Position numbers and translations under genes: made by a program. A stretch of DNA of 64,000 nt from Ilumatobacter fluminis (GTDB lineage: Bacteria > Actinomycetota > Acidimicrobiia > Acidimicrobiales > Ilumatobacteraceae): assembly GCF_004364865.1 (NCBI RefSeq), contig NZ_SOAU01000001.1, positions 3,938,001 to 4,002,000 of the forward strand, written 5' to 3'. Below are positions 4,351 to 63,513 of this stretch, in pieces (the stretch's first letter is position 1; each line of letters opens with the position of its first letter). The notes under the pieces were generated by a model, which ran no database searches, was not told the DNA's origin, and was given only the letters and a program-made list of their open reading frames with translations.

Positions 4351-4492
4351 GGGTCGGGTGTCGCACGGAACGGCGAGGCGCAGCCGAGGCGTTTCGGAAG
4401 ATCACCCGACCCGGTCGCGCGCTTTCGGCACCGGAGTCGGGTGATCTCCGGAAACGTCGACTCCGTCGCCGTTCCCTCCGACACCCGACCCG
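4351..4492. repeat. REPIN-like palindromic element, family A (copy 1)
   Basis: Two units in inverted orientation. The first (4351-4412, 62 bases) runs from GGGTCGGGTG to CACCCGACCC; the second (about 4434-4491, 58 bases) is a related but distinct unit in reverse. About 21 bases separate them. Each unit can fold alone and the pair can fold into a long hairpin. Further copies lie at 12685-12864, 41039-41259 and 59047-59104. It occupies the gap between dps and mftE and may end dps transcription. Confidence 0.85.
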
Positions 4493-12684: not shown

Positions 12685-12864
12685 GGGTCGGGTGTCGGAC
12701 GGAACACCGAGGCGCAGCCGAGGCGTTTCGGGAGATCACCCGACCCGGTCGCGGACCCACGTCACCGGAGTCGGGTGATCTCCGGAAACGTCGACTCCGT
12801 CGCCGTTCCCTCCGACACCCGACCCGCTTCCTACTCCGTCGCCGTTCCCTCCGACACCCGACCC
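12685..12864. repeat. REPIN-like palindromic element, family A (copy 2, with extra fragment)
   Basis: A 62-bp forward unit (12685-12746) and a 58-bp reversed unit (about 12768-12825), in the same order as at 4351, followed by a third, truncated copy of the reversed unit (about 12833-12864). It fills the gap between two convergent genes, so it could act as a bidirectional terminator. Confidence 0.85.
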
Positions 12865-39943: not shown

Positions 39944-41140
39944 GTGATCCGACAGTTCGACATCGGGCAGATCGACGGCGGCGACCGGCTGACGATCGAG
40001 TGGGACGACGGTGCCGTCCTGATCGCTCCCTGGATCTGGGTGCGCGAGCACTCACACGACCCCGACACCTTCCATCCGGTGACCCAACAACGGCAGGTCT
40101 TCACGGGCGGGCTCGACCCCGACCTGCGGCCGGTCGACTTATCGATCGACGACGATCGTCTCGTCGTCACGTGGGCGAACGACGATGCACCGTCGGTGCT
40201 CCCACTGTCGTTCGTCCGCGATCACGCCGCGGCGGTGCCGCTGCCCGACGAGCCGGTGCTGTGGGACGTCGCGACGATCGCCGAGCAGTGGCCCTCGGTC
40301 CCGCACGACGTCGTCATGGCCGACGACGACGGTGTCCGCCGCTGGCTCGACCTCGTGGCCCGGTACGGGTTCTGCATGGTGACCGGCACGCCGGCCACCG
40401 TCGACGCGACCCGCTCGCTGATGGAGCGCATCGGTTACATCCGCGAGACGATCTTCGGCGGGTTCTGGGAGTTCCGACCCGACCTGTCGAAGGCCGACAC
40501 GGCGTACACGAACATCGAACTGCTGCCCCACACCGACGGCACGTACAGCCACGACGCCCCGGGCCTCCAGATCCTCCAGTGCCTCCACCACGACGGCGAC
40601 GGCGGTGCGAGCACGATGGTCGACGGGTTCCGGATCGCCGACGAACTCCGCCGCAATGCCCCCGAGCACTACGAGACGCTGTCGACGGTCGAGGTACCGG
40701 GCCAGTACATCGGCGACGGGGCACACCTCGTCGCCCAGCGGCCCGTCTTCCGCCACGACCGCGGCGGTCGCCTCGTGCAGGTGTCGTTCAACAACGCCGA
40801 CCGAGCACCGTTCCTGCTGCCGCCCGACGAGATGGACCGCTTCTACGCCGCGCTGCGAGCGTTCGAGGCGCTGGCGAACGACGACCGGCTCCGGTGGGAG
40901 CGTCACAATCCGCCCGGCGAGGCGATGCTGTTCGACAACTGGCGGATGCTCCACGGCCGCACGGCGTTCACCGGACACCGACACCTCTGCGGCGGCTACG
41001 TCAACCGCGAAGACTACGAGAGCCGCCGCCGAGTGCTCGGGTCGGGTGTCGCAGGGAACGGCGACGGAGTCGATGCCGGGTCGGATGTCGCAGGGAACGG
41101 CGACGGAGTCGACGTTTCCGGAGATCACCCGACCCGGTGA
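39944..41140 (+). CDS. Gamma-butyrobetaine-hydroxylase-like TauD-family dioxygenase
   Basis: A 398-residue Fe(II)/2-oxoglutarate oxygenase with the two-domain layout of gamma-butyrobetaine or trimethyllysine hydroxylase. The N-terminal domain (residues 1-90) resembles the family zinc-binding module, but the block WVREHSHDPDTFHP lacks the three cysteines. The catalytic domain shows LLPHTDGTYSH (HxD) and MLHGRTAFTGHRH (distal His, Arg). The start is a GTG at 39944 (or TTG at 39932). The last 33 residues are encoded by a family A repeat, with its stop codon. The native protein probably ended near SRRRVLG. A carnitine-related substrate is possible. Confidence 0.85.
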   Translation: MIRQFDIGQIDGGDRLTIEWDDGAVLIAPWIWVREHSHDPDTFHPVTQQRQVFTGGLDPDLRPVDLSIDDDRLVVTWANDDAPSVLPLSFVRDHAAAVPLPDEPVLWDVATIAEQWPSVPHDVVMADDDGVRRWLDLVARYGFCMVTGTPATVDATRSLMERIGYIRETIFGGFWEFRPDLSKADTAYTNIELLPHTDGTYSHDAPGLQILQCLHHDGDGGASTMVDGFRIADELRRNAPEHYETLSTVEVPGQYIGDGAHLVAQRPVFRHDRGGRLVQVSFNNADRAPFLLPPDEMDRFYAALRAFEALANDDRLRWERHNPPGEAMLFDNWRMLHGRTAFTGHRHLCGGYVNREDYESRRRVLGSGVAGNGDGVDAGSDVAGNGDGVDVSGDHPTR

Positions 41141-41259
41141 CCACGGCGCGCGTCCGGGTCGGGTGATCTCCCGAAACGCCTCGGCTGCGCCTCGGCGTTC
41201 CGTACGACACCCGACCCGTTGGAGGTGCTGCCCTCGGCGTTCCGTACGACACCCGACCC
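41039..41259. repeat. REPIN-like palindromic element, family A (copy 3, overlapping a gene end)
   Basis: Read on the opposite strand it has the same order as the copy at 12685: partial 62-bp unit, full 62-bp unit, full reversed 58-bp unit and partial 58-bp unit. It covers the 3' end of the oxygenase gene and ends just before the ABC ATPase gene. Confidence 0.87.
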
Positions 41260-59046: not shown

Positions 59047-59104
59047 GGGTCGGGTGACCTCCGGAAACGTCGACTCCGTCGCCGTTCCCTCCGACACCCG
59101 ACCC
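59047..59104. repeat. REPIN-like palindromic element, family A (copy 4, single 58-bp unit)
   Basis: One 58-bp unit from GGGTCGGGTG to CACCCGACCC in the reversed orientation, sitting between convergent genes (membrane protein and FadB-type). It is the only copy without a partner 62-bp unit and marks the family as a stand-alone REP. Confidence 0.85.
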
Positions 59105-63338: not shown

Positions 63339-63513
63339 GGGTCAGGTGCCAGAGGTGACGACTCGCCCCCGGGGCGAGGCGTGACCGGCGGTCACCTGAC
63401 TCCGGGGTCCCGTGGTCTGGCCAAGCGACTCGTTCCCTGTTCGCGCACCTGCCCCGGGTCAGGTGACCGCCGGTAACGGCTCGTTCCTCGCCGTCACCTC
63501 TGGCACCTGACCC
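63339..63513. repeat. REPIN-like palindromic element, family B
   Basis: Two inverted units of about 58-64 bases bounded by GGGTCAGGTG and CACCTGACCC or a variant, separated by about 53 bases. The outer part reads GGGTCAGGTGCCAGAGGTGA in both. The design matches family A, including a GGAACG-type core, but the sequence differs. It lies between the divergent MFS and ligase genes. Confidence 0.8.

Follow-up and report, generated by a model that had tools for sequence, protein, structure and literature searches.

Populations of REP and TIR repeats are common, yet the way in which they spread and change is poorly understood (PMC8266576). The REPINs of REP-RAYT systems, among the closest described elements, consist of two inverted palindromic units with a spacer, occur in many intergenic copies, and are accompanied by a Y1 transposase flanked by units (Bertels and Rainey, PMC3116915). 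The E. coli BIMEs pair differing REP subtypes, Y and Z, and a REPtron carries Y and Z2 REPs (PMC6006769). Exclusive heterodimers are formed in some REP families, and this was suggested to be an escape from palindrome-removing enzymes (PMC3733652). In TIRtrons, long inverted repeats bracket a RAYT-like gene (TIRYT); these repeats recur in the genome, and some are self-complementary and arranged as dimers (PMC3733652). The Actinobacteridae in the sample described in PMC6006769 carried only subclass 1.1. Here, a related system was analyzed in Ilumatobacter, a genus of the class Acidimicrobiia in the Actinomycetota.

The window is the 64,000-nt stretch C1:3938001-4002000 of the single 4,775,416-base contig of Ilumatobacter fluminis (genome label G000), and it contains three family-A pairs, one family-A single unit, and one family-B pair. 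A preliminary description proposed a 62-bp unit and a 58-bp unit with common ends at 4351-4492, and direct reading together with a fuzzy scan confirmed them. In this first pair, a 62-nt unit with an R loop and a C-type stem (4351..4412, plus strand) and a 58-nt unit with a D loop and a G-type stem (4434..4491, minus strand), each located by direct reading and fuzzy scan, enclose a 21-nt spacer (4413..4433). The second pair combines a 62-nt unit (12685..12746, plus) with a 58-nt unit (12768..12825, minus) across a spacer that direct reading and the fuzzy scan put at 21 nt, and a tandem outer-arm half-unit lies outward of the 58-nt unit (12833..12864, minus). The third pair has its 58-nt unit at 41078..41135 (plus), a 20-nt spacer, and its 62-nt unit at 41156..41217 (minus), and reading the other strand gives the order of pairs 1 and 2. 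The proposed order of 62-nt unit, spacer, and inverted 58-nt unit holds at all three sites, with spacers of 20-21 nt. The third pair had been placed at 41039 on the other strand; the order was correct, but the complete pair starts at 41078, and 41039..41073 (plus) is a truncated tandem outer-arm half-unit outward of the 58-nt unit. Another such half-unit lies outward of the 62-nt unit (41228..41259, minus). The common ends of the units are also present, except that in pairs 1 and 2 the 58-nt unit has GAGTC rather than GGGTC at its inner end. The unit at 59047 is single, as proposed, and spans 58 nt (59047..59104, minus).

A second family, with ends GGGTCAGGTG, is represented in the window by a pair at 63339-63513 whose plan matches that of the family-A pairs: a 64-nt unit with a P loop (63339..63402, plus), a 53-nt spacer (63403..63455), and a 58-nt unit with an E loop (63456..63513, minus). 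Unit types were labelled by loop as A-R (62 nt), A-D (58 nt), B-P and B-R (64 nt), and B-E (58 nt). With at most one mismatch, GGGTCGGGTG occurs 43 times in the window compared to 16 times on average and no more than 25 times in 100 shuffled sequences. Rfam at gathering thresholds gave no match within the window, and no tRNA or tmRNA was found there. As a separate observation, a plus-strand gene placed at 39944-41140 by a rough gene caller crosses the half-unit and the 58-nt unit of pair 3 and stops just beyond them; the repeat seemingly supplies the C-terminal end of its protein.

Consensus folds of the four unit types agree on a basal stem of 12 bp whose inner arm contains one bulged T, followed by a 3x3 internal loop, an upper stem, and a variable tip, with a G-T wobble in the upper stem of three of the four types. 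Folded as single-stranded DNA, six window units gave z scores of -2.67 to -5.14, and the whole of pair 1 gave -8.80. The 62-nt unit of pair 1 folds with z -3.99 on the plus strand and more weakly on the minus strand (z -2.67), and its 58-nt partner gives z -4.47 on the minus and -3.29 on the plus strand. The corresponding values are -5.14 for the 64-nt family-B unit and -4.58 for the plus strand of the 58-nt family-B unit. Compensatory changes, scored on structures predicted from those very sequences, occur at two base pairs each in A-D, A-R, and B-E and at four in B-P/R (34, 28, 21, and 30 distinct sequences, respectively); three of the four B-P/R pairs lie in the tip, where the two loop types part. 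Pair 11 alternates between T-A and C-G in A-D, B-E, and B-P/R, and pair 16 in the family-A upper stem alternates between G-C and C-G. At the stem base, pair 6-53 is G-C in family A and mostly A-T in family B. A GTAG or GTGG tag was not found at the outer feet of 53 pairs, where position -1 is C in 91-100%, and a conserved GTAG tag was not seen by eye at the inner feet or at the singles. The system is not a canonical GTAG REP.

The units extend far beyond the four window loci first described. A two-ended unit pattern matched the whole genome 137 times forward and 144 times in reverse, counts that include many units on both strands because the pattern is near-palindromic, and its backwards control gave 0 + 0. 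Stricter one-way patterns matched 46 + 49 places for family A and 27 + 34 for family B (complete lists of 95 and 61 places), and their controls gave 0. BLAST searches were performed with pair 1 and with the family-B pair, scoring the best 40 of 189 and the best 40 of 109 candidates; among the matches listed, 18 further full-length matches are 91-94% identical to pair 1. The census itself was targeted, covering 392,881 nt (the stretches around listed sites plus the window), and very degenerate units elsewhere would escape it. From 193 non-overlapping candidates, 13 with four arm mismatches were dropped, followed by 7 of the remaining 180 that were unclassifiable, which include a degenerate D unit (4549818), a shortened A-like unit (1187562), and an E-like unit (4675709). 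The result is 173 classified full units of 57-64 nt at 114 sites on the 4.78-Mb chromosome, comprising 57 singles, 55 doubles, and 2 triples.

Homotypic inward pairs number 0 of 55 in this census (33 A and 22 B). All 33 inward A pairs are D/R, or 62/58 (one with a 59-nt D unit), with spacers of 15-29 nt, and all 22 inward B pairs are heterotypic (12 E/R, 8 E/P, and 2 P/R), with spacers of 53-56 nt. Reshuffling the paired units reached the observed heterotypy in 0 of 20,000 trials for A (32 isolated pairs) and 2 of 20,000 for B (21 isolated pairs). These data extend the proposed ordered, non-random 62/58 pairing to the whole chromosome. In the loci scanned in relatives, inward pairs are also heterotypic, with 11/11 in G067 and 10/10 in G112; the G112 loci, taken from two collections with duplicates removed by context, contain 58 units (compared to 32 + 43 pattern matches in the genome). 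Outward neighbours in G000 are heterotypic too, both in the doubles at 2796178 and 3336389 and in the one neighbour of each of the 2 triples. G112 has two heterotypic outward neighbours and three tandem neighbours of differing type, the latter not counted as pairs.

Three A pairs (60560, 637651, and 4574154) carry their loops on the opposite stem type, and the partners still differ in both loop and stem. Loop and stem are separable because loops sit on the other stem type in these pairs. Heterotypy is explained in part by common descent of the pairs, and the several B combinations together with the swapped A pairs suggest a constraint on pairing. Identical partners would form a perfect palindrome and may be excluded for that reason. 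Separately, a chimeric unit with an A-type stem and the P tip of family B is located at C1:1608048-1608111 of G000 (L140); chimeric units were likewise detected in the relatives, as A-P and A-E in G067 and G112 and as B-D in G067.

Y1_Tnp has one match in the whole genome, over the Pfam cut-off. The 272-aa transposase is encoded at C1:4552074-4552892, about 0.55 Mb beyond the window, which fits the earlier statement that the window contains no RAYT. Its sole NCBIfam match is REP_Tyr_transpos (NF047646) at 53.4 bits, below the curated cut-off of 80. The motifs H59-Y60-H61 and Y118---N122-P123 are those of an HUH-Y1 protein with the Y---NP signature given for these transposases in PMC6006769, and H59, H61, Y118, and N122 are invariant in 21/21 aligned sequences from one taxonomic family. 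The top PDB match of the 21-member profile is E. coli TnpA-REP (4ER8), at a weak E of 0.01. A plain-sequence search of PDB gave two matches at E <= 1, one to a designed repeat protein and one to a cilia protein; they lay off the Y1 domain or were spurious and were rejected.

The transposase gene is bracketed by an upstream P-type family-B unit (4551956-4552019) and a downstream inverted P-type family-B unit that overlaps its 3' end (4552872-4552935), and it occupies the spacer place of a family-B pair. This P/P arrangement is homotypic, with the units 852 nt apart, and no short palindrome results. Two outward half-units lie on the upstream side of the gene and three on its downstream side. A search for a Y1 transposase with flanking units had been proposed as a check; one was found, but its flanks are family B. 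Family-A units are not at the flanks of this only Y1_Tnp gene of the genome, and the nearest A pair lies about 1.9 kb downstream (4554777). The single Y1 transposase may nevertheless move both families, in which case family A would be mobilized by a gene that family B brackets.

Relatives of the transposase were detected in 22 of 150 family genomes, its own included, and the others are at most 39% identical. A close copy was not found in the G067 and G112 assemblies, where the best matches are 34% identical and have other flanking hairpins; the G067 contigs end at repeats around the transposase place, so a lost copy and an unassembled one look the same there. A transposase-based search for related loci returned 115 pattern-matching stretches and 0 confirmed relatives. 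Self-BLAST, with positions not checked singly, gave inverted or palindromic repeats at 22 of 29 other transposase loci, and GGGTC[AG]GGTG occurs in 0 of these 29. The motif GGGGWSAS, common to some TIRs in PMC3733652, is enriched at 21 transposase genes, with 15 occurrences in 5,973 nt of flanks (8/21 loci) compared to 3 in 37,179 nt farther away, a density about 30 times higher. Four of the 15 lie in the downstream flank of the G000 transposase and 0 in its upstream flank, where only the 7-mer GGGTCAG is present; the family-A sequence, GGGTCGG, departs from the motif. Separately, the transposase relative at L091 1501-2142 (G067:C46:18473-19114), in a genome rich in A and B units, has one internal TAG stop and other flanking hairpins.

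Syntenic comparison identified empty sites. Contig C4 of G067 is collinear with the window, and the flanking matches of window sites 1 and 2 are separated there by 12 and 27 nt compared to 160 and 177 nt in G000. The gap at site 2 is also short in G123 and G019 (79 and 75 nt versus 278 and 306 nt), and in G112 the orthologous place holds a family-B pair. With gene identity at about 80%, the divergence of the intergenic DNA prevents the insertion point in the empty sites from being placed to the base. Pair gain or loss continued after the species split, because G067 lacks the pairs of window sites 1 and 2. The suggestion that the pair is mobile as one unit agrees with this gain or loss of whole pairs, but 57 of the 114 sites hold single units.

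Flush repeats that could represent target-site duplications were counted at 53 pairs, yielding 0 of 2-3 nt, 1 of 4 nt (0.01 expected), and 0 of 5-10 nt. If the pairs were MITEs moved by a DDE transposase that recognizes inverted ends, their overall inverted symmetry and their dispersal between genes would be accounted for, but apart from the one flush 4-nt repeat there are no duplications of 2-10 nt, the unit-bracketed gene found by the Y1_Tnp search encodes a Y1 transposase, and every unit is itself a bulged hairpin. These data make a MITE origin highly improbable. The pairs are probably non-autonomous REPIN-like elements of a RAYT/TIRYT system, and the REPIN-like reading in the preliminary description is largely supported.

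The strict pattern matches 4 of 10 genus genomes (G000, 78 + 86; G067, 23 + 25; G112, 32 + 43; G123, 1 + 1). It is absent from 396 of 397 genomes of an order sample that does not contain G067, G112, or G123, and the only match is G000 itself. A contig search with the unit pattern, which may exclude the window's own genome, returned 48 stretches, 47 from JAGQSS01 (Ilumatobacter sp. HKST-UBA13) or NZZV01 (Acidimicrobiaceae NAT239) and one from JAUHYJ01.

Many occupied sites are shared between species. In G067, 45 sites (56 units) were scanned, and 23 match the G000 stretches of the census on both sides, 22 of them with a G000 unit in the gap; two of the 23 were scored as empty in G000, and one of these (L261) coincides with the unclassified D unit at 4549818, hence 22. 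The ratio of 22/23 is inflated because the G000 stretches were chosen for units, and 22/45 is a fair lower bound for the shared G067 sites. About 1 shared site is expected if the 114 sites are spread evenly over about 4,250 gaps, a value that preferred kinds of gap would raise. The window single at 59047 has a D unit at its orthologous place in G067 (L271). The families differ at 8 of the 22 shared sites (L193, L204, L205, L206, L270, L275, L277, and L288), close to the estimate of about 10 for independent family assignment. In G112, 43 sites were scanned, 12 match on both sides, and 11 of these have a G000 unit; the families differ in four, of which L235 and L247 have unclear gaps and L249 and L253 hold both families in G112.

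Individual shared sites carry different hairpin bodies. At 2239877, an R unit in G000 corresponds to a D unit in G112 with equal flank length. The A stem at 1107362 ends in a D tip in G000, whereas the tip is of type E in G067 and G112. On the B stem at 4542731, the tip is of type P in G000 and of type D in G067. Where G000 has a B-E unit at 1475659, G067 carries a B-type outer base with an A-D body. Site 2661829 holds B-E in G000, A-D in G067, and both in G112, an arrangement compatible with conversion and also with the insertion of a unit next to an older one that is later lost. Either route, a gene conversion-like process or such an insertion with loss of the older unit, may exchange unit bodies between copies at old sites. 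Reportedly, REP evolution proceeds by gene conversion, judging from the title of a 1988 review by Higgins et al.

It is a real possibility, on which we lean slightly to the negative side, that the differing unit types at shared sites reflect only independent insertions that recurred in a few permissive gaps, the older units being lost, and not exchange in place. Consistent with this, the gap of the A pair at 85116 in G000 holds, in G067, a repeat of G067's own transposase type, and A and B units stand side by side in G112 where G000 has B and G067 has A. However, sites 2239877, 1107362, and 4542731 keep flank length and orientation, yet their units differ, in stem and loop at 2239877 and mainly in the loop at the other two. 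An alternative, which we regard as unlikely, is that occupied sites are long-lived docking sites where the hairpin body is swapped in place, with position and orientation kept and the outer arm copied outward from the apex; the loop, the upper stem, or the whole unit would then be swapped between families. As a side observation, the G067 gap corresponding to 85116 (L201, 2008-2072) contains an inverted repeat near-identical to the hairpins at the G067 transposase (L091), and this gap has been used by two transposase-repeat systems.

Family A, or both families, could be a relic spread by an ancestral transposase now lost or changed, with copies that persist, convert, and decay; most of the REPIN-like interpretation would also hold for this special case. 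In line with such a history, no A unit brackets the transposase, single units make up half of the sites, at least 22 of 45 scanned G067 sites are common to G000, A and B differ at stem pair 6-53, and a close transposase is absent from the G067 and G112 assemblies. Against it stand the 18 further full-length copies, among the matches listed, that are 91-94% identical to pair 1, and the empty window sites 1 and 2 in G067, which indicate gain or loss after the species split. We consider a relic population possible but rather doubtful.

Partial copies of the units show a strict polarity. The arm patterns are equally sensitive on full units (176 outer and 172 inner), and outside full units they detected 88 free outer arms compared to 1 free inner arm, with 0 for the backwards control of the outer pattern. 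Of the 85 half-units with a unit no more than 400 nt away, 84 share that unit's orientation and are positioned past its outer end; 48 units carry half-units. The copied part could be measured in 46 cases, with median lengths of 30, 31, 27, and 28 nt in A-D, A-R, B-E, and B-P, respectively, which place its end close to the apex of the hairpin. A linker of 4-10 nt separates it from the unit in 33 of the 46. These features point to outward copying from the apex to just past the foot. Slippage alone should treat inner and outer arms alike, and an enzyme at the outer foot would distinguish them. The half-units could arise if the transposase, or a stalled fork, processes the hairpin from the outer foot and breaks at the apex. 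In the docking-site reading regarded above as unlikely, the 88:1 polarity would mean that the end to be processed is chosen by the transposase and not by ordinary slippage, in a form of single-strand hairpin editing of resident copies.

According to a home-made gene caller, 111 of the 114 sites lie between two called genes, 1 lies inside a called gene, and 2 are not assessable. The 111 intergenic sites comprise 40 convergent, 59 co-directional, and 12 divergent gaps, and 176 unit-free gene pairs in the same stretches comprise 24, 120, and 32, respectively. The excess of convergent gaps and the strong unit folds are what would be seen if the units were kept as transcript ends or mRNA-stabilizing hairpins, with mobility secondary. 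However, the co-directional and divergent sites together with the absence of the strict pattern from 6 of 10 genus genomes and nearly all of the order sample make this role distinctly unlikely as the basis for their maintenance.

The sites cluster near the DnaA C-terminal domain at 4.681 Mb, with 52 of 114 within 300 kb of dnaA compared to about 14 expected by length (C1:4.39-4.78 Mb and 0-0.14 Mb of G000). Replichores were assigned with the origin set by dnaA and the terminus assumed to be opposite, as GC skew in the stretches of the census was too noisy to place either. In 37 of 51 pairs, the lagging-strand template carries the short unit ahead of its partner (Fisher p 0.0011), with pair orientation split 21:3 and 11:16 between the replichores; two P/R pairs of the 53 doubles lack a short unit and were excluded. 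Singles show no orientation bias (short, 15/40, p 0.19; long, 8/17, p 1). The origin predicted from the bias before dnaA was located (4.25-4.65 or 1.9-2.5 Mb) missed 4.681 Mb by about 31 kb. As a side observation, Bac_DnaA_C weakly matches 3 of 21 aligned transposase relatives (E <= 1, best 0.00098) and not the G000 protein; transposase fusions with this domain are described in PMC6006769. It is speculation that a DnaA-like C-terminal domain is linked to the clustering of sites near dnaA, the G000 protein having no match to the domain.

A single chromosome with a single bracketed transposase shows a pairing rule, partial-copy polarity, and a replichore bias, and related species add sites that are empty, shared, or exchanged. 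The system therefore allows transposition, palindrome avoidance, and in-place exchange to be tested one by one. The literature was searched for RAYT/REP in Actinobacteria and for palindromic repeats in Ilumatobacter, and no paper was found, which is not proof that the system is unreported. Within this literature, the strict outward polarity of half-hairpins, the body exchange at shared sites, and the occurrence in Acidimicrobiia seem to be new. Asymmetric pairing alone is not new, as ordered heterodimers are already known in several REP families (PMC3733652).

The system shares with REPINs the plan of two inverted palindromic units with a spacer, the many intergenic copies, and a Y1 transposase flanked by units, here of family B (PMC3116915). 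Its units of 57-64 nt are unlike REPs of 20-40 or 20-50 nt (PMC3733652, PMC8266576), and they carry no GTAG tag. The pairing of differing subtypes resembles that of Y and Z REPs in the E. coli BIMEs and the REPtron, but the units are longer and untagged, and half-unit arrays were not encountered among the BIME features described in PMC6006769. The HUH-Y1 protein family, the hairpins near the ends, and the lagging-strand preference are shared with IS200/IS605 elements such as IS608 (PMC6006769), whereas here the transposase is single copy and the units spread without the gene. TIRtrons are similar in the RAYT-like gene bracketed by genome-repeated inverted repeats, some of them self-complementary and arranged as dimers (PMC3733652). 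The GGGGWSAS motif of some TIRs is enriched in the flanks of the 21 transposase genes taken together and, at the G000 gene, is present on the downstream side only. Family B meets the main TIRtron description, and family A is a related population without its own transposase. Compared to the TIRtrons described in PMC3733652, the Ilumatobacter system differs in its host, an acidimicrobial member of the Actinomycetota, in its 58-64-nt bulged hairpins, in the combination of two families with one transposase gene, and in its strict heterotypy and outward half-unit arrays.
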